Assembly: GCA_024400115.1 (NCBI GenBank)
Contig: JAKSNF010000007.1
Span: forward strand, 1-64,000
Reading direction: 5' to 3'
Length of the DNA: 64,000 bases
From: Paludibacteraceae bacterium
GTDB lineage: Bacteria; Bacteroidota; Bacteroidia; Bacteroidales; Paludibacteraceae
Below, piece after piece: positions 6,941 to 37,284 of this stretch (within the stretch, counting starts at the first letter, position 1; each line of letters opens with the position of its first letter). The notes under the pieces are model-generated. The model worked only from the letters and a program-made list of their open reading frames with translations, ran no database searches and was not told the DNA's origin. Made by a program: the position numbers and the translations under genes.

Positions 6941-7402
6941 TCTCCCGCTCACTCGCTTTGCTCGTTATTACGCTACGCCTTCGGCTATTTGCTGCCATGG
7001 CTATAAGCCTCGCTTTATGCTTTTATTCCGGGCGGCTAAAGCACGCCCTATGCTCGTCGAGTGGGCTTCACAAGATGTCAAAGTTCAACTTTGACAGGGT
7101 TGTTTCAGCCCCCTCTCCTTAATTACACAAATAAGATATGCTTCGTCTGCACCTCTCTGCCTCTCGCCTCTAACCAGCAGTAGGCACTTGCACCGTCCTC
7201 TCACCTATCTGCAACACTTGCATCCGCGTAATTGAGGAGAACGAGGCGAAAGGCACCCCTAGGCTTGCGGGGCAAGGCTATCGTGCTGAGCCTTGTTCGA
7301 CGGGCAAAGCGTGTGCTTTAGCCACGCAGAATAAAGCAATTTTAGTGCGGACTATGGGCTGACGCGTAATTTGCGTAATAAGCCGATAGGCTGAGCGGGA
7401 GA
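6941..7402. repeat. Large imperfect inverted repeat in a 651-bp noncoding region; candidate structured RNA leader
   Basis: This is the only gene-free stretch over 300 bp (6892-7542). The left arm (about 6941-7126) and right arm (about 7228-7402) are imperfect inverted copies. Matching blocks include TCTCCCGCTCA with TGAGCGGGAGA at the ends, GCTAAAGCAC with GTGCTTTAGC in the middle, and CTCCTTAATTA with TAATTGAGGAG inside, around a loop of about 100 nt. Smaller hairpins are nested (GGGCGGCTAAAGCACGCCC; GTCAAAGTTCAACTTTGAC). A leftward promoter at 7460-7490 would transcribe the whole structure as a 5' leader of the NifU-like/GGGtGRT operon or as a separate RNA. No known riboswitch, RNase P, tmRNA or SRP signature was recognised. 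Arm ends are approximate. Confidence 0.65.
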
Positions 7403-7542: not shown

Positions 7543-8661
7543 GTGATTTTGTCCGAACTCAATATATTGAACTATCGCAACATACGCGATGCCTCTTTAT
7601 CCTTCTCGGATAAACTGAATTGTTTTGTGGGGCTCAACGGTCAAGGTAAAACGAATCTCTTGGACGCTATCTACCTCCTTTCGTTTACCAAATCAGCCCT
7701 CTCGCCTACTGATAGTCAAAATATCACCCACGGCGAGGAACTCGCTATGGTTCGTGGCACCTATCTACCATCCACAATCCACAATCCACAATCCACAGAA
7801 ATTATAACTTGTGGCTTGAAGAAAGGCGTGAAGAAACAGTTCCGTCGGGGAGATAAGGATTATAAGCGGTTACTGGATCATATAGGTCTTATTCCGCTGG
7901 TGATGGTCTGTCCTGAGGATGGCGAACTCATTGCCGAAGGTAGTGACGAGCGCCGCCGTTTCTTGGATGTGGTCATTGCGCAATACAATAAACCCTATTT
8001 GGAGACGCTGACACGCTATAATGCCCTTCTTAAACAGCGTAATGCTTTGCTCAAATCTTTAGAGGAACCCCCTACACCTCTACCCCCCTACACCTCTACT
8101 CCCAATGTCGATTTATTGGCTACTTTTGAGGTACAGATGGTGCCGCTGGCGGAGCAGATATACCAAGAGCGGACGGCTTTTGTGGAGCGTTTTATTCCGC
8201 TTTTCCAGGAGATATACAACGAACTGAGCGATGGGCAAGAGACGGTTAGTTTGCGTTATATCAGTCAGTTACAGGACCGTAATTTGGCGGAGGCGTACGA
8301 GCGTACGCGTCAGCGCGATGTGATTCTTGGTTGGACGTCGCAAGGCATTCATAAGGACGAATTAGAGATGCTCTTGGACGGTTATCCGCTCAAGCGGGTA
8401 GGGAGTCAGGGGCAGCAAAAGACCTATCTGCTTGCCATGAAACTGGCACAAGCGGTTAGTTTGGGTAAACCGATCTTATTGTTGGACGATATATTTGATA
8501 AACTGGATGCAGAGCGTGTAGCGCGTATCATTCGTTTGGTTAAGTCCAATCGTTTTGGTCAAATTTTTATCACGGACACCGACCGCCAGCACCTCACCGA
8601 CCTCTTGCAACCCGATGAACAAACGAGAGTCTTCCTTGTAGAAGGAGGAAATGTAAAATAA
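7543..8661 (+). CDS. recF: DNA replication/repair ATPase RecF
   Basis: SMC-like ATPase that loads RecA at single-strand gaps in recombinational repair. The Walker A motif is GLNGQGKTNLLDA (about residues 29-41), the signature motif is in the GSQGQQKTYLLAMKLAQA region and Walker B is PILLLDDIFDKLD. The GTG start at 7543 gives the canonical N-terminus (MILSELNILNYRNI) and there is no room for a leader. Two loop insertions encoded by low-complexity tracts are visible: LPSTIHNPQST (about residues 76-86) and PPTPLPPYTSTPN (about 176-188). The other RecF features look intact, so the protein is probably functional. The response regulator gene starts 4 bp downstream. Confidence 0.95.
   Translation: MILSELNILNYRNIRDASLSFSDKLNCFVGLNGQGKTNLLDAIYLLSFTKSALSPTDSQNITHGEELAMVRGTYLPSTIHNPQSTEIITCGLKKGVKKQFRRGDKDYKRLLDHIGLIPLVMVCPEDGELIAEGSDERRRFLDVVIAQYNKPYLETLTRYNALLKQRNALLKSLEEPPTPLPPYTSTPNVDLLATFEVQMVPLAEQIYQERTAFVERFIPLFQEIYNELSDGQETVSLRYISQLQDRNLAEAYERTRQRDVILGWTSQGIHKDELEMLLDGYPLKRVGSQGQQKTYLLAMKLAQAVSLGKPILLLDDIFDKLDAERVARIIRLVKSNRFGQIFITDTDRQHLTDLLQPDEQTRVFLVEGGNVK
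7765..7798 (+). repeat. In-frame CCACAAT heptamer tract in recF
   Basis: About four tandem heptamers (TCCACAA) encode STIHNPQST within a beta-hairpin loop region of RecF. A near-identical peptide (STILHPQST) is encoded in the GlcD-GlcF gene at 54488-54522. Confidence 0.85.
8070..8104 (+). repeat. In-frame CTACCCC-type tract in recF
   Basis: Two copies of a CCCCCTACACCTCTA unit, 16 bp apart, encode PTPLPPYTSTP. The antisense strand of valS at 38654-38692 carries a closely similar tract that encodes LPPYSSTP in ValS. Confidence 0.8.
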
Positions 8662-13678: not shown

Positions 13679-16024
13679 ATGAATATCATTACAAAGGAAG
13701 TTAAACTTCCGGATGGTCGAGTTGTTAAACTCGAAACCGGCAAGCTCGCTAAACAAGCTGACGGAGCCGTTATGGCTACCCTCGGCAACACGATGATTCT
13801 TGCCACAGTTTGCAGCGCAAAAGACGCTGTTCCCGGTACCGACTTTATGCCGCTTACCGTTGAGTACAAAGAAAAATACGCAAGCGCAGGTCGCTTCCCC
13901 GGCGGATTCACCCGTCGTGAGGGTAAAGCGTCTGACTACGAGATTCTGATTGCTCGTCTCATTGACCGCGCATTGCGTCCTCTCTTCCCCGCTAATTATC
14001 ACGCCGAGACGTTCGTGAACGTTACGCTTTATTCGGCCGATGGCATTGATATGCCGGAGTCTATCGCCGGTTTAGCTGCCGGTGCAGCTCTCGCTTGCTC
14101 GGATATACCCTTTGAGGGTCCCGTTTCTGAGGTGCGCGTAGCTCGCGTTAATGGTGAGATGGTGATTAACCCCACCTTCGAACAATGCGAACAAGCTGAC
14201 CTCGAACTCATGGTTGCCGCTACGTACGACAATATCATGATGGTTGAAGGTGAGATGAAGGAAGTGCCTGAGAGCGTTATGCTCGAGGCTATCAAAGCCG
14301 CTCACGAGGCTATCAAACCGCAATGTCTCGCTATCAACGAGATGATGAAGGCTTATGGCAAAGAGGTTAAACGCGAATACTGCCACGAGGTCAACGACGA
14401 CGAACTCAAACAAGCCGTTCATGACTTCAGTTATGCTCGCGCTTATGCGCAAGCCACTTCTTCCGATACCGATAAGCATCACCGTGAGGCTATGTTCTCG
14501 CAGATCTGCGAAGACTTCAAGACGGAGAAACTTGACTATATGCAAGCCCGCGCAGAGGCTTTAGGCATTGATGTAGATGAGATTGCCGCTATGGTGGATC
14601 GCTACTACCACGATGTAGAGAAAGAGGCTATGCGTCGCGCTGTGCTCGATGAGGGCAAGCGTCTGGATGGCCGTAAGACCACGGATATTCGTCCTATCTG
14701 GTGCGAGGTAGGTTATCTTCCCGGCCCTCACGGTTCGGCTATCTTCACTCGTGGTGAGACCCAATCGCTCTCTACTTGCACGCTGGGTACCAGCCGTGAC
14801 GAGAAGATGGTGGATGAGGCACTCATTCAAGGTTCAGAGAAGTTCTTACTGCACTATAATTTCCCGCCCTTTGCTACGGGTGAAGCCAAGGCTCAACGCG
14901 GCGTAGGTCGTCGTGAGATTGGTCATGGTAACCTCGCTTGCCGTGCCCTCAAGAACATGGTTCCGGAGGACTTCCCGTACTCGGTACGCGTTGTTTCCGA
15001 TATCCTTGAGTCTAACGGTTCGTCTTCGATGGCTACCGTTTGCGCAGGCTGTTTGGCTCTCATGGACGCCGGTGTACCGTTGAAGAAACCTGTGAGCGGT
15101 ATCGCTATGGGTATGATCTCCGAACTCGTTAACGATAAACTGAACTATAAGATTCTGTCCGATATCCTTGGTGATGAGGATCACTTGGGCGATATGGACT
15201 TCAAGACGACGGGTACCCGTGACGGTCTGACCGCTTGCCAGATGGATATTAAGGTGGATGGTCTAAGTTACGAAGTATTGGAGAACGCTTTGGAACAAGC
15301 GCACCAAGCTCGTATGTTCATCCTCGATAAGATCTGCGAGTGCATGCCCGCTCCGCGTGCTGACCTCAAGCCTCATGCTCCGCGTATCACGTCTTTCTAT
15401 ATTCCGAAGGATATGATTGGTGCTGTCATTGGCCCCGGTGGTAAGATTATTCAAGGTATCCAAGCCGAGACCGGTGCTGTCGTTTCGATTGAAGAAGACG
15501 AGAAGGGCGGTAAGGTGGAAGTAGCTTCCAATAACGGCGAACAGATGGCTGCCGCTATCGCTAAGATCAAGGCTATCGTGGCTATTCCCGAAGTAGGGGA
15601 GAGCTATGAAAGTACCGTTAAGTCGATCATGCCTTACGGTTGCTTCGTTGAGTTCATGCCCGGTAAGGAAGGTCTGCTGCATATCTCTGAGATAGACTGG
15701 AAACGTTTCGATACGATGGAGCAAACGGGTATCAAGGAGGGCGATAAGATTATGATTAAACTCCTTGAGGTTGATCCCAAGACCGGTAAGTTCCGTCTCA
15801 GCGCTAAGGCACTGAAGGAGAAACCCGAAGGCTACGTAGAGCCCGAGCGTCCCAGTCGAGAGCCGCGTAGTGACCGTGGTCCTCGCCCCGGTCGAGAGCC
15901 TCGACACGCAGATAGCCATTCGGACAACCGTGGTCCCCGTCCCGGTCGAGAGCCTCGACACGCAGATAGCCATTCGGATGGTTACAGCGACTTCGAAGGC
16001 GATGGCGCTAAGTTAGAAAAATAA
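13679..16024 (+). CDS. pnp: Polynucleotide phosphorylase
   Basis: 3'-5' exoribonuclease that degrades RNA with phosphate. It has two RNase PH domains (N-terminal from residue 1 with [25 protein letters not shown] split across the first; the second with [13 protein letters not shown]), a KH domain ([16 protein letters not shown], about residues 578-593) and an S1 domain ([19 protein letters not shown]). At 781 aa it is longer than the usual 700-720 aa because of an Arg/Pro/Gly-rich, disordered tail that contains an 18-residue tandem duplication ([17 protein letters not shown]). Such RG-rich tails commonly bind RNA or partner proteins. It has its own promoter and may be co-transcribed with the following barrel protein. 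Confidence 0.97.
15875..15979 (+). repeat. 54-bp tandem duplication in the pnp tail
   Basis: Two copies starting at 15875 and 15929, nearly identical at the DNA level, encode [17 protein letters not shown] twice. It adds 18 codons, so the frame is kept. Confidence 0.9.
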
Positions 16025-21616: not shown

Positions 21617-21640
21617 CAGAGCCGTGAATTCACGGCTCTG
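21617..21640. terminator. 24-bp perfect palindrome, terminator for converging transcripts
   Basis: A perfect 12+12 palindrome around GAATTC. On the minus strand it is followed within 5 nt by a TTTTT run, so it should terminate thrS; on the plus strand only a weaker TTATCTTT follows. It lies between the convergent 20808 gene and thrS. Confidence 0.85.
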
Positions 21641-21644
21641 TTAT

Positions 21645-21755
21645 CTTTCAGGGCATCGCCCGGTCTTATAGCGAGCAAAGCGAACGGTCTTTCAGGGCCT
21701 TGCCCGGTCTTTCAGCAGACTATGTCTGCGGTCTTTCAGGGCATCGCCCGGTCTA
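21645..21755 (-). repeat. Array of five GGTCT(TTCA)-separated short hairpins after thrS
   Basis: GGTCT boxes occur at 21662, 21686, 21706, 21730 and 21750 (spacing 24, 20, 24, 20), mostly within GGTCTTTCA. Between them sit small palindromes: GGGCATCGCCC (twice), GGGCCTTGCCC and GCAGACTATGTCTGC; one unit (GCGAGCAAAGCGAAC) is not a good hairpin. The array begins 2 bp beyond the thrS stop, so the thrS mRNA 3' UTR would be a string of hairpins before the terminator. Confidence 0.8.
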
Positions 21756-21756
21756 A

Positions 21757-23712
21757 TTAGTACGCATTCATCTGCTCGGTGACAGTGGTGTTGATGAAGT
21801 CGGCGAAGGCTTGGATGGTCATCTGACCCTTGTCCTCAGCACCTTGCTGGCGAACGGAGACAAGTCCTTGCTCGGCTTCCTTCTCGCCCACGATAAGCAT
21901 AAACGGAATCTTCTTGAGTTCGTTATCGCGAATCTTACGACCAATCTTCTCGTCACGGTCATCTACGATAGCGCGTACATCTTGTTGCTCAAGAATCTCT
22001 TGCACCTTATGCGCATACTCGTTGGACTTCTCCGAAATAGGCAGAATAGCCACTTGGTCGGGCGTGAGCCACAAGGGGAACTTACCGGCAGTGTGCTCAA
22101 TGAGTACCGCTACGAAACGCTCCATCGAACCGAACGGCGCACGGTGAATCATAACGGGACGGTGTTTGAGGTTGTCCTCACCCGTGTATTCGAGTTGGAA
22201 ACGCTCGGGCAGGTTATAATCGACTTGGATAGTACCTAACTGCCAACGACGACCGATTGCGTCCTTAACCATAAAGTCTAACTTAGGACCATAGAAAGCG
22301 GCTTCACCATACTCCACCTTAGCGGGTAGGTTCTTCTCCTTACAAGCGTCAATAATAGCTTGTTCGGCTTTCTCCCATACCTCGTCGGAACCAACGTACT
22401 TGGTGTGGTTATTGGGGTCGCGGAGCGAGATTTGTGCCTCGAAGTTCTTGAAATCCAATGCTTTGAAGATAATCTCGATAATCTCCATGACGCGAATGAA
22501 CTCGTCCTTAACTTGGTCTTGACGGCAGAAGATATGCGCATCATCCTGCGTGAACGAACGAACACGTGTCAATCCGTGCAACTCACCCGATTGCTCATAA
22601 CGATAAACGGTACCGAACTCAGCAATACGCAACGGCAGGTCTTTGTACGAACGCGGGCTGTTCTTGAAGATAGTGCAGTGGTGAGGGCAGTTCATGGGTT
22701 TGAGCAAATAGACCTCACCTTCCTCCGGCGTGGTGATGGGTTGGAAACTGTCCTTGCCATAGTGATCCCAGTGACCGGAAGTGACGTAAAGGTTCTTATT
22801 GCCGATATGCGGGGTCATCACTTGCTGATAACCATAACGCTTCTGTATCTTCTTGAGGAAATCCTCTAAACGCAGACGGAGAGCCGTGCCTTTGGGTAGC
22901 CAGATAGGCAGACCCTTACCCACCATGTCACTGAACATGAACAGGTCGAGTTCCTTACCGATACGGCGGTGGTCACGTTTCTTAGCCTCCTCAAGGAGAG
23001 CCAAGTACTCGTCGAGCATGGATTTCTTGGGGAAGGTGATGGCATAGACGCGCGTCATCATCGGGCGGGTCTCATCGCCACGCCAATAAGCGGCAGCGCA
23101 AGAGAGCACCTTAACGGCTTTGATAGGAGCCGTAGTCATGAGGTGGGGACCCTTACACAGATCCGTGAAGTTACCTTGGGTATAGGTCGTGATATGACCG
23201 TCCTCGAGGTCGTTGATGAGTTCGCACTTGTACGTCTGACCCTTGTCGCCAAAGGCTTTGAGCGCATCGGCTTTGGAGATGTCACGACGGATGAGTTCGG
23301 ACTTTTTTTGGAGCAACTCCATCATCTTCTTCTCGATGTTCTCGAAGTCGCCTTCTTTGATAGCCGTTCCCTCTTGGGGATAAACGTCGTAGTAGAAACC
23401 GTTCTCAATGGCGGGACCGATACCAAATTGGATACCCGGGTAGAGTTCTTGCAGTGCCTCTGCCATCAGGTGAGAAGAGGTGTGCCAGAAAGCATGTTTG
23501 GCCTCGGCATCTTCCCACTTGTGCAGTTTGATAGCGCAGTCAGTGGTGATGGGCAGACTCAAGTCGATGATTTCCCACTCGTTGTCTTTCTTAATGCTGG
23601 CAGCTAATACGTCTTGTGCCAGACGAGGGCTGATACTCTCAGCCACTTGATAAGCGGTGATACCGCTTTCGTACTCACGGACGCTTCCGTCCGGAAAAGT
23701 GATTTTAACCAT
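21757..23712 (-). CDS. thrS: Threonyl-tRNA synthetase
   Basis: Class II synthetase charging tRNA-Thr. An N-terminal TGS domain ([25 protein letters not shown]), an editing domain with [16 protein letters not shown] and CKGPHL, the catalytic core with motif 2-like residues ([11 protein letters not shown], then [26 protein letters not shown]) and motif 3 ([11 protein letters not shown]), then an anticodon-binding domain ([17 protein letters not shown]). The frame is open to 23751, but the ATG at 23712 gives the standard N-terminus; 651 aa is typical. It lies 61 bp behind the trmH-like gene and is probably in the same operon. Confidence 0.97.
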
Positions 23713-23773
23713 ATTGTTAAACCTACAAATGTTTATGCTCTTGGGGCTCACAACTGCTCCGCAAGCGAATATG

Positions 23774-24520
23774 TTATTTTGTTGTGAATTGTCTTCTAAA
23801 CTCTGCTAATGTTATCGCTGTAGCCACAGCCACATTGAGCGATTCGATATGAGCGTTGGGTGCATAACTCGGTATGTAGAGCGGATGAGTGATGAACTCA
23901 CGCACCTCAGCCGATATGCCGTTCCCCTCATTGCCCATGATGATGATTCCTCCCGCGGTGTCCGCTATCGCGCCATCTTCGTATATGTTGCGCCCATCCA
24001 AGAGCGTGCCGTAAATGGGAAACTTTAAACTATCAACTTTTGAACTTCTTTCAACTATTAACTTTAAACTTTCAACTAAATCTACATAATGTATATTCAC
24101 GCGGGCGAGGGCGCCCATGGTGGCTTGTACTACCTTTGGATTATAGCAATCTGCCGTGTCCTTGGAGCAGTAGATGTCCGTTACACCAAACCAATCGGCG
24201 GTACGGATAATGGTACCGAGGTTGCCCGGGTCCTGTATCCCGTCTAACGCCAAGATTAGACCGGCTTCGGCTGAAAGATTGTCGTTCTTGAGAGAACGTT
24301 GCCTAAAGACTGCTAAACTGCCTTGCGGATTTTTGAGGGAAGACATTCTTTCCGCTCCATTTTGAATGAGGGTGACGAGTTCAAAGTGCCCCATCAGTTC
24401 CCCAATGCACTTGTCCCCTTCAGCGACGAAGAGTTTCTCTTCGTCCCTCACTTTTTTTTGCTGCAAAGAGCGAATAAATCGCACTTGATTCTTGCTAATA
24501 TGACCTAAAAGTGGCTCCAT
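23774..24520 (-). CDS. TrmH/SpoU-family RNA 2'-O-methyltransferase
   Basis: SPOUT-fold methyltransferase acting on rRNA or tRNA with SAM. The N-terminal substrate-binding part ([30 protein letters not shown]) is followed by motif 1 ([21 protein letters not shown]), motif 2 ([12 protein letters not shown]) and motif 3 ([21 protein letters not shown]). In SpoU enzymes motif 3 normally reads IPM/SLNVSVA, so this is intact. Between YVDLVES and IYGTLLDG there is an extra [16 protein letters not shown]-type peptide encoded by a heptamer tract (24021-24080) in place of a very short loop. Driven by the leftward half of the divergent promoter at 24537-24568. Confidence 0.92.
24021..24080 (-). repeat. 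In-frame AGTTGAA/CAACTTT heptamer tract in the trmH-like gene
   Basis: On the coding strand the units read AGTTGAA, AGTTTAA, AGTTAAT, AGTTGAA and so on with period 7. On the plus strand it ends in a 21-nt stretch that is identical to 33177-33197 in front of the GT2 gene; both are preceded by CTTCTTTCAACT, indicating common origin. Confidence 0.85.
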
Positions 24521-33123: not shown

Positions 33124-33197
33124 ACTTGTTAACTTTAAAACTTCTTTCAACTTTCAACTTTCAACTTTCAACTTTCAACTTTAAACTTTCAACTAAA
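33124..33197 (+). repeat. Intergenic CAACTTT heptamer tract before the GT2 gene
   Basis: The whole 74-bp gap between two genes is built of AACTTTC/AACTTTA units (five perfect or near-perfect in a row). It ends directly at the ATG at 33198. The frame is accidentally open through it, giving a spurious longer N-terminus. Confidence 0.9.
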
Positions 33198-34523
33198 ATG
33201 TACTTTCTTCCTTCAAGAATTTGTTCTACGGAACTCATTAAGCAAATAGCCGACCAAGTTACGTTCTCTACGGATAAATATGTTATCCTATCCACGAAAC
33301 CTCATATTGATTGGGTTTATCGTGCTGAGCAGCGTTTGGAGCAAGTCCTTTCTTATACCCACGCCGCGATGGTCTATTCTGACCGCTTTGCTAACGGACA
33401 GGCATCGCCTGTGATTGATTACCAAGAGGGAGCTCTCCGCGACGATTTTGATTTTGGTGCTGTTACGGTGTGGAATAGGGAAGTGTTCTTGCAAGCTGTA
33501 GCGCAAATGGATACGAACTACGAGTATGCAGGATTCTACGACCTCCGTTTGCGCGTGAGTAGGATAGGGCAGTTAGTGCATATACCGGAATACCTTTATT
33601 ATGAGGTAGAGGAGGATAACCGTAAGTCGGGCGAGAAACTGTTTGACTACGTTAATCCGGCTAATCGTGCCGTTCAGATAGAGATGGAAGCGTGCGTTAC
33701 GGCTCACCTCAAAGCCCTTGGCGCGTGGGTCGATTATACTACTCTACACTCTACACTCTCCACTCTAAACTCTAATAGACCCACTGCCTCCGTCATCATC
33801 CCTTGCCGTAATCGTGTCAAGACGATTCGTGATGCTGTTATGAGCGCGCTTGCGCAACGCGTGCGCGAACCTTATACTTATAATGTAATAGTCGTGGACG
33901 ATAACTCTACCGATGGTACGGTAGAAGAAATCTCTAAACTCTCCACTCTAAACTCTCAACTCATTATCCTTCACCAAGACCCAACATGGCACGGCATTGG
34001 CGGTAACTGGAATAATGCTATTCACGATGAGCGTTGCGGTCAGATTGCTATTCAATTAGATAGTGACGACACGTATTTTGATGAGAATACGGTGCAACGT
34101 TTCATTGATGCCTTTGAGTCTGGTGATTATGCCATGGTTATTGGTACCTATCAGATTGTAGATGCCAATCTTGCCCCTCTATCTCCTAACCCGATGATTA
34201 TCTCTCACGCTGAGTGGACGGCAGAGAACGGAATGAACAACGCTCTGCGTATCAATGGTTTAGGAGCACCGCGTGCTTTTAGAACAGATTTGCTAAAGAC
34301 GATTGATTTCCCGACCACTAAGTATGGCGAAGATTATGCGGTGGCCTTGCGTATCAGTCGCGAATATAAGATTGGGCGTATTTACGATGTAGTGTATAAC
34401 TGCCGACGTTGGGAGCATAATTCAGATGCTAATTGCAGTATCGAGGAAATGAATCGCAATAATTTCTATAAGGACCGCCTCCGCACGTGGGAACTGCAAG
34501 CCCGCCTAACCATTAAACACTAA
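33198..34523 (+). CDS. Family 2 glycosyltransferase with unusual N-terminal domain
   Basis: The C-terminal part is a GT-A glycosyltransferase: [22 protein letters not shown] (about residues 199-220), [11 protein letters not shown] and the DXD-like [11 protein letters not shown]. Residues 1-190 form a separate domain ([22 protein letters not shown], then [20 protein letters not shown]) that resembles a second, partial glycosyltransferase-like fold. The sugar and acceptor are unknown; the neighbourhood suggests LPS or wall glycan. The start is ATG 33198, because everything upstream is heptamer repeat. Two more tracts inside the gene encode [11 protein letters not shown] and [10 protein letters not shown]. 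Confidence 0.82.
33740..33774 (+). repeat. In-frame ACTCTAC/ACTCTAA tract in the GT2 gene
   Basis: Five heptamers encode [12 protein letters not shown] in the linker before the glycosyltransferase core. Confidence 0.85.
33931..33962 (+). repeat. Second in-frame ACTCTAA tract in the GT2 gene
   Basis: Heptamers encode [10 protein letters not shown] directly after the [13 protein letters not shown] motif, a position normally held by a short variable loop. Confidence 0.85.
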
Positions 34524-36195: not shown

Positions 36196-37284
36196 ATGAC
36201 CATCCGAGTAGGTATAGTAACCGCTCCGCATATTGATTACGAGTTAAGGGAGCATACGTTTGTTCTTCACAACGTGCGTATCGGCATTGGTTTTCATTGG
36301 GACCAAACGGAAGACGAGGAGTTCGAGGGTGAACTGGAGATTCTGCATAACGCAGACGGTACCGAAACGGCGGTCAATATCATTGACCTCGAATCGTATA
36401 TCTCTTGTGTCATTTGTTCGGAGATGTCTGCGGATAGTCCCCTTGAGTTATTGAAAGCGCACGCTGTTATCTCCCGTTCGTGGGTGTTACGCAATATCGG
36501 TCATACGGGGCACGTGGGATATGATGTCTGTGCCGATGACCATTGTCAGCGGTATAATGGTCTCCGTCGCCGCTCTGCTCTCGCCCTTCAAGTCGTTGAA
36601 GAAACGAAAGGTGAAGTACTCATACCTCTAAACTCTAAACTCTCCACTCTAAACTATAAAGATATATGCGATTGTCGCTACCACAAGTGTTGTGGCGGTC
36701 GTACAGAAATATATTCCACTTGTTGGGAGGACAAGGACTATCCCTACCTCCAATCGGTCGAATGCCCCTATTGCCATCCTTCAGCCCGCTCTTATGTCAA
36801 TGATTACGATCGTTCAACTCGCGATTATCACTCTTGGGCGGTGGAGTACACACAGGAGGAGTTGAGTAGGGTAGTAAAAGAGAAGACGGGAGTGGATTTT
36901 GGTTTGATAACGGACATTATCCCGTTGCACCGGGGTGCGAGTGGGCGAATAGATAGGTTAGAGATAGTGGGTACCAAGCATCGGGAGGTGATAGGTAAGG
37001 AACTGCGTATCCGCCAAGCCCTCTCCCCAACGACCCTTTACAGTTCGTGGTTCGAGATTGAAAAACTAACAAACTCTAAACTTCTTAACCAGACGGCTAC
37101 TCTAAACTCTCCACTCTCCACTCTAAACTACCTTTTCCGTTTGAACGGAAAAGGATGGGGTCACGGTGTCGGCTTATGTCAGATAGGCGCTGCTGTGATG
37201 GCTCAGCAGGGCTTCACGTATAAGCAGATCTTGGCTCACTATTATCGCAACACGGAAATCTCGTGTTTTTGCAGAAAAAGTTAG
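36196..37284 (+). CDS. SpoIID/LytB-domain protein
   Basis: Contains the SpoIID core (VNIIDLESYISCVICSEMSADSPLELLKAHAVISRSWVLRNIG split over residues 57-100, then GKGWGHGVGLCQIGAAVMAQQGFTY near the end). In sporulating Firmicutes SpoIID is a lytic transglycosylase; in Bacteroidota homologues the role is unknown, probably in peptidoglycan. Cysteines cluster in CDCRYHKCCGG and CPYC, suggesting metal binding. No signal peptide is visible, which is odd for a wall enzyme. Two heptamer tracts add PLNSKLSTLNY (about residues 146-156) and NSKLLNQTATLNSPLSTLN (about 296-314). Confidence 0.85.
   Translation: MTIRVGIVTAPHIDYELREHTFVLHNVRIGIGFHWDQTEDEEFEGELEILHNADGTETAVNIIDLESYISCVICSEMSADSPLELLKAHAVISRSWVLRNIGHTGHVGYDVCADDHCQRYNGLRRRSALALQVVEETKGEVLIPLNSKLSTLNYKDICDCRYHKCCGGRTEIYSTCWEDKDYPYLQSVECPYCHPSARSYVNDYDRSTRDYHSWAVEYTQEELSRVVKEKTGVDFGLITDIIPLHRGASGRIDRLEIVGTKHREVIGKELRIRQALSPTTLYSSWFEIEKLTNSKLLNQTATLNSPLSTLNYLFRLNGKGWGHGVGLCQIGAAVMAQQGFTYKQILAHYYRNTEISCFCRKS
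36625..36656 (+). repeat. In-frame ACTCTAA tract in the SpoIID-like gene
   Basis: Heptamers ACTCTAA, ACTCTAA, ACTCTCC, ACTCTAA encode LNSKLSTLNY, the same order of units as in the GHL10 gene (4327-4360). Confidence 0.87.
37071..37130 (+). repeat. Second in-frame composite tract in the SpoIID-like gene
   Basis: Carries the AACCAGACGGCT core shared with msbA (31461-31519), flanked by ACTCTAA/ACTCTCC heptamers. Confidence 0.88.

Follow-up and report, generated by a model that had tools for sequence, protein, structure and literature searches.

Immediately behind thrS, a Paludibacteraceae genome carries a short row of hairpins, and the locus raises the question of whether this row acts on thrS or stands there as one copy of something more widely spread. 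The following features lie at this place in the window, by which we mean the whole 64,000-nt stretch of DNA that was analysed.

21617–21640, minus strand: perfect 24-nt palindrome, terminator-like, with a T-rich tail on the minus strand
21644–21756, minus strand: whole array, five times GACC-hairpin-TGAAA, directly after the thrS stop codon
21734–21753, minus strand: unit 1, GACC, GGGCGATGCCC (4-bp stem, 3-nt loop) and TGAAA
21710–21733, minus strand: unit 2, GACC, GCAGACATAGTCTGC (6-bp stem, 3-nt loop) and TGAAA
21690–21709, minus strand: unit 3, GACC, GGGCAAGGCCC (4-bp stem) and TGAAA
21666–21689, minus strand: unit 4, GACC, GTTCGCTTTGCTCGC and TATAA; long type, with a GA/GA internal mismatch on the other strand
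21646–21665, minus strand: unit 5, GACC, GGGCGATGCCC and TGAAA, then GATAA into the flank
21757–23751, minus strand: thrS (threonyl-tRNA synthetase), upstream of the array; named from the first-pass annotation and the translation, without a family search
24257–24286, minus strand: single decayed unit, coding 10 residues, inside the SpoU/TrmH-type gene adjoining thrS

The thrS stop codon occupies 21757–21759 on the minus strand, and GACC starts follow on that strand at 21753, 21733, 21709, 21689 and 21665, giving spacings of 20, 24, 20 and 24 nt. The first-pass annotation had described five boxes of one motif at a 20/24-bp rhythm, alternating with small perfect palindromes between the thrS stop and a terminator. 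The layout stands, but only three of the five boxes are exactly GGTCTTTCA, the others being ATCTTTCA and GGTCTTATA, and four of the five hairpins are perfect, the fifth (GCGAGCAAAGCGAAC) being of the long type with the GA/GA internal mismatch. Tandem Repeats Finder gave the 44-bp double unit a score of 136. The whole array folds better than its shuffles on both strands (z −4.9 on the minus and −3.8 on the plus strand), and its minimum-energy fold differs from a row of small hairpins. No Rfam model matched the array at gathering score, a tRNA being the sole match within the window. The terminator-like palindrome at 21617–21640 is a neighbour of the array and lies outside the minihairpin family described below.

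A device in the thrS mRNA had been proposed. None of 28 thrS ends of relatives is directly followed by an array, and most of the copies examined lie inside other genes, which speaks against such a device; given the absence behind the relatives' thrS, a thrS-specific regulator was rejected. One of the 28 has a linker in the next gene, close to the limit of 250 nt behind thrS. Binding of a protein, the other role first proposed, may apply and forms part of the explanation favoured below. When the thrS end plus the array was used as a query, 163 of 178 same-genus genomes matched, nearly all in the thrS part. The GGTC strand, which bears the stable DNA-type loops, is the non-coding strand behind thrS. 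The first-pass annotation had named two findings that together would speak against it: the absence of other copies does not hold (140 linkers), and the lack of conservation near thrS does. The array probably has no specific role at thrS and is an incidental neighbour.

The SpoU/TrmH-type gene next to thrS (23774–24520, minus strand) holds its decayed unit in a loop that in relatives contains array-coded residues (L033, L101, L197 and L295) or unrelated short repeats; this loop is a hot spot for repeat insertion. The box motif had also been reported, reversed, in an element at 6941–7402. GAGCAAAGCGA is indeed present there (minus strand, 6963), but it is part of one imperfect hairpin and lies outside the conserved linker, so it gives no sign of kinship, and a relationship was rejected given that this 11-mer is all the two share. 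The element itself, whose borders CTCCCGCTCA and TGAGCGGGAG form an inverted repeat, is MITE-like and has GAGCAAAGCGA in common with one array hairpin only. Elsewhere in the window, a 54-bp repeat containing a GTCGAGAGCCTCGAC motif and CAGATAGCCATTCGG occurs twice at 15873–15978; it may represent a further palindromic family, and a motif of similar kind is found behind the thrS of the relative L100. Heptamer tandem repeats (ATCCACA, CTTTCAA, ACTCTAC and CTCTAAA) are frequent, for example at 7770–7797, 33144–33194, 33741–33774 and 36626–36660, and repeats resembling them form part of the lpxB coding sequence of this genome (HTQSTIHNPQSTIHNPQ).

A dispersed family of minihairpin units

The genome-wide search that had been suggested for the unit gave 140 matches of the linker CTGWARGACCG in 2.14 Mb, 54 of them forward and 86 reverse, and 0 matches of the reversed control pattern. 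Used as a BLAST query, the thrS array gave 37 matches in the same assembly (60 contigs, 99% complete). The array belongs to a REP-like family of dispersed repeats, whose layout fails the definitions of REP, REPIN and CRISPR. Units, arrays and frames were counted in the stretches around pattern hits (the first 100 of the 140 places in this genome) and around the places of BLAST matches, after loci outside the genus and units without a nearby linker had been dropped.

Across the 178 same-genus genomes, the linker count ranges from 0 to 140, with at least 20 copies in 33 genomes and at most 5 in 112. Among the matches listed for paired linkers, the named hosts were mostly Paludibacteraceae and Bacteroidales MAGs from ruminant guts. 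A sample of 393 genomes from across the order contained a single one outside the genus that was clearly above background (G331, 57 against 3 in controls). The Flavobacteriales MAG NORP269 gave 161 matches to a slightly wider pattern, against 7, so the family is patchy and wider than the genus. Six stretches of viral contigs fitted the paired-linker pattern; none was an array of the minihairpin kind, and most resemble collagen-like coding repeats. In the open-licence papers searched, we found no published description of the family.

In each array the units run head to tail, and every unit joins a short hairpin to a constant linker behind it (TGAAAGACC, or GGTCTTTCA on the other strand); hairpin sequences vary between units while complementarity is maintained. 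The 190 units read in this genome contain 91 distinct inserts, and the 548 read in relatives contain 189. Unit length across the family is 16–24 bases, 9–11 of them forming the constant element, and the commonest anatomy is a stem of 2–6 bp with a loop of 3 or 4 bases, 2-bp stems being the most frequent. The 137 linkers counted in this genome comprise 66 of CTGAAAG type, 39 of CTGTAAG type, 16 of CTGTAG type and 16 others. In the larger length classes pairing is far above that of arm-shuffled controls. For distinct 11-nt inserts, inner pairs are formed in 55 of 57 cases in this genome (33.3 after arm shuffling, sd 3.6), and relatives have 86 of 93 formed (51.0 after shuffling, sd 3.6); in some small length classes (8, 9 and 13 nt here; 7, 8, 10 and 16 nt in relatives), pairing did not exceed the best of 1000 shuffles.

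The loops also follow a rule. Read on the GGTC strand, 109 of 138 triloops in this genome are GNA and 14 of 18 tetraloops GNNA. GN(N)A loops on this strand accompany short stems of 2–3 bp (418 of 511 units) more often than long ones (55 of 111; Fisher p 1e-11), also when only distinct inserts are counted (54/90 versus 31/79, p 0.009). GNA/GNNA-type loops occur on the GGTC strand in 85 distinct inserts and on the other strand in 7. The corresponding loop rule in RNA is GNRA; a pyrimidine occupies the third base in 59 of 82 GNNA tetraloops, against GNRA. By nearest-neighbour energies the two strands are nearly equal, and the strand claim leans on published DNA loop classes. In the available parts of two sources, d(cGNNAg) appears as a selected stable DNA tetraloop motif (Nakano 2002, as listed in PMC2984261), and an extraordinarily stable 2-bp DNA hairpin is tabulated at 76.5 °C, d(GCGAAGC) being such a minihairpin (PMC10527192). 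We take the loop classes to indicate that selection acts on the GGTC strand as folded single-stranded DNA.

Arrays inside genes

Sixty-eight array clusters were read in this genome. Of these, 48 lie in frame within ORFs of at least 200 aa and 5 within a shorter spanning frame; no frame of 90 aa spans the other 15. The GGTC strand is the coding strand in 44 of the 48 intragenic clusters and the opposite strand in 4. There are 40 array-bearing frames, and 27 of the 30 scanned had a Pfam match. The matched hosts, whose short names are our interpretation of the Pfam hits, include a class I tRNA synthetase, pheT, ligA, polA, priA, recJ, uvrB, mutS2, murB, murF-alr, lpxB, dsbD and cinA.

The reading frame is intact in 102 of 112 testable intragenic arrays, testable meaning that both flanks fall in one reference protein from another locus (112 of the 262 arrays at all loci). 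Six of the 10 flagged arrays have an intact spanning ORF and four have none (L186, L195 at 1933, L256 and L261); at the murF-alr locus L203, one cluster was parsed, with its frame intact. With 102 of 112 in frame, the arrays are most simply translated through, without need for bypass or splicing, and translational bypass or removal from the RNA was rejected on this count and on the six flagged arrays with an intact ORF. As to orientation, 93 of the 102 in-frame arrays are antisense and 9 sense. The array sequences themselves offer 483 open frames in antisense and 171 in sense (2.8:1), so the skew exceeds what openness would give (p 2e-5).

Other in-frame repeats (ASVPLA/RERDAHAP, AGEPPASQ) occur in same-genus genomes at L307, L313 and L269 (ligA loop), and some ligA hairpins in these genomes have a AAATGATG-like linker. 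Such differing in-frame repeats within the genus suggest several palindromic families.

How the units may spread

We consider it moderately probable that the arrays are a REP-like single-stranded-DNA hairpin parasite, mobilised by an HUH enzyme and tolerated in genes. A REP-type HUH (Y1) transposase would recognise the unit as folded single-stranded DNA of the GGTC strand and would spread units and arrays. Insertions in genes would survive only where the frame stays open, and the survivors would mostly have the stop-poor GGTC strand as coding strand and sit in permissive loops. If survival is so restricted, the array would be a tolerated parasite with no specific role at thrS.

Candidates for such an enzyme were found. 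A profile of a divergent Y1 family (A2), built from relatives, matched three genes in this genome (L333, L334 and L335), all with HUH and Y-NP motifs. The NCBIfam model REP_Tyr_transpos matched them with E-values of 5e-6, 7e-8 and 4e-6, under its curated cut-off, and the A2 profile matches ISDra2 TnpA (E 1.3e-4). A structure model of a homologue from a relative (L245, mean pLDDT 52) resembled ISDra2, IS608 and REP-bound TnpA (4er8) in Foldseek, with DprA (3uqz, 4ljr) lower in the list and no E-value below 1e-3. The candidates are probably divergent REP-type HUH transposase homologues with a DprA-like C-terminal domain. Pfam Y1_Tnp had no match in this genome at E 1e-3, and a canonical transposase of this Pfam family was rejected as mobiliser on that ground; another RAYT-like family (A1), present in 11 of the 178 genomes, was set aside, this genome not being among them. 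No relatives of the candidate enzyme were confirmed in viral contigs. The available part of a HuH survey (PMC6006769) assigns subclasses 2.4 and 2.6 to Bacteroidetes and reports REPs lying in frame within tnpA genes of subclass 2.4; DprA is not mentioned there. Within the open-licence literature searched, we found no paper joining the name RAYT with DprA and none on the probable pairing of a REP-type HUH nuclease with a DprA-like domain.

The link between these genes and the arrays is indirect. The flanking sequence retrieved for the three candidate genes contains no linker, and neither do 20 Y1 loci of relatives. Copy number is weakly correlated with the candidate gene (Spearman 0.22, a statistic that ignores kinship). 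Among genomes at least 85% complete, the gene is present in 17 of 18 with 20 or more copies and in 59 of 81 with fewer (p 0.064, kinship again ignored). Four high-copy genomes lack it, three of them incomplete and one (G004, 20 copies) 96% complete. With the candidate genes lying apart from the arrays and the copy-number correlation weak, mobilisation stands as an inference; the three REP-type HUH homologues are the likely mobilisers.

A single case of array–transposase proximity was seen, in a relative (L237:6850–7998), where a divergent REP-type transposase gene is directly preceded by a gene containing an array, and the array lies about 130 bases ahead of the transposase frame.

Arrays at corresponding sites differ in content. 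In 93 array pairs with both flanks homologous between loci, which overlap in species and are not independent, unit number is equal in 33 and unequal in 60. Only 25 of 126 aligned units are identical; in the 101 differing ones, both hairpins are perfect in 67 and lengths differ in 61. Among units of equal length, 8 base pairs are changed on both sides yet paired, 10 are paired in one unit only and 1 in neither. Some array pairs are near-identical (L226/L247 and L193/L277), and the ligA arrays of this genome and L169 have the site in common with most units different. No clean empty site was found, the alr of relatives having about 30 other host bases at the array position. These differences reflect either unit replacement or repeated hits on permissive loops; same-site arrays may be independent insertions, since in some relatives the protein loop concerned is occupied by unrelated repeats. 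A tentative second reading, possible but on balance doubtful, is a single-stranded-DNA system resembling a CRISPR turned inside out. Here, an HUH–DprA fusion would recognise the constant linkers together with any stable minihairpin and would insert or exchange units, so that loops of essential proteins would be continually rewritten while only DNA fold and frame are preserved.

An origin without an enzyme, in which replication slippage between linkers expands the units and template switching (quasipalindrome correction) keeps the hairpins perfect, is unlikely. Adjacent identical units do exceed the shuffled expectation (7 of 112 against 4.2 in this genome; 32 of 379 against 13.0 in relatives), and short tandem repeats abound in the same genome. 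However, most neighbouring units differ, which makes slippage minor, and slippage does not explain how one 11-base linker came to stand at dozens of sites that are not linked. Stems of 2 bp would be too short to template their own correction, and the choice of loops is strand-specific. We hold it quite unlikely that the arrays are a selected DNA landmark, bound by a host protein for uptake, for segregation or as a nucleoid site, and spread by recombination. The constant linker, variable hairpins, many copies and a strand bias in genes above the open-frame expectation would all suit this account, but a range of 0 to 140 copies within one genus is unlike essential landmarks, and in the order outside the genus G331 is the one genome clearly above background. 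A selected RNA element, in which transcribed hairpin rows would protect or stabilise mRNA 3' ends or bind an RNA-binding protein, agrees with the position between the thrS stop and a terminator-like palindrome and with the stable folding of both strands relative to shuffles, but is very unlikely given the lack of an array directly behind any of 28 thrS ends in relatives, the mostly intragenic copies, loops that obey the DNA rule GNNA (59 of 82 not GNRA) on the strand that is non-coding behind thrS, opposite array orientations between species at one murF-alr site, and the missing Rfam match.

If the favoured reading of a tolerated single-stranded-DNA hairpin parasite is true, the element conserves hairpin fold over sequence and offers a rare case in which selection on the hyperstable DNA minihairpins described by chemists can be tested directly. 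The arrays extend the coding sequence of essential genes in a gut lineage and thereby bear on the tolerance of selfish DNA inside proteins. For annotation, it should be borne in mind that residue runs like LSAERSFS in these genomes are array-coded.

Comparison with known systems

That the array is neither a CRISPR nor a canonical REP element, as first proposed, was borne out by the layout and by the features tested. With CRISPR it has a regularly spaced array in common. CRISPRs have identical repeats of 24–48 bp and unique spacers, whereas here the spacer is constant, the palindrome variable, the unit far shorter and the sites number in the dozens; this reversed layout rules CRISPR out. Rickettsia palindromic elements are longer, single elements. 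They likewise place palindromic DNA in frame in many protein genes (102 of 112 arrays here), but the present arrays are rows of 16–24-base units with a constant linker. In the available part of one source, RPE-4 and RPE-6 are equated with intragenic R. conorii repeats (PMC3733652).

GTAG REP elements mobilised by RAYTs come closer. As described in the accessible parts of two sources, they are dispersed hairpins of small size, have an unpaired tag next to the stem and follow a single-strand logic, and intragenic copies are known (PMC3733652, PMC6006769); the family studied here, with 140 linkers, likewise has many dispersed short-hairpin copies. The GTAG tag, conserved in most REP copies, occurs in 16 of 137 linkers of this genome. 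REP stems measure 5–13 bp and are conserved within a family, whereas here 2-bp stems are commonest and 190 units contain 91 distinct inserts. A RAYT gene is usually flanked by its repeats, in contrast to the candidate enzymes of this genome, which have no array beside them; these three HUH/Tyr homologues match the NCBIfam model with E-values from 4e-6 to 7e-8, below its curated cut-off. Bacteroidetes TnpA_REP proteins fall into subclasses 2.4 and 2.6, and the structures of 2.6 are described, in the same partial texts, as atypical and without GT[AG]G (PMC3733652, PMC6006769).

REPINs are, like these arrays, non-autonomous hairpin DNA, and their mobilisation by RAYTs is presumed; in the available part of the source they are inverted REP pairs in extragenic positions, and a few evenly spaced tandem REP arrays are reported (PMC3116915). 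Here, the repeats are direct and mostly intragenic, and linkers run in one direction within arrays, the exception being two loci of this genome (L009 and L010) where an opposed array stands beside the first. By tag, stem length, within-genome conservation, head-to-tail order and enzyme linkage, all of which were tested, the family is not a REP; our analysis suggests that it behaves as a single-strand hairpin parasite of REP type whose copies are tolerated in frame much as in Rickettsia.
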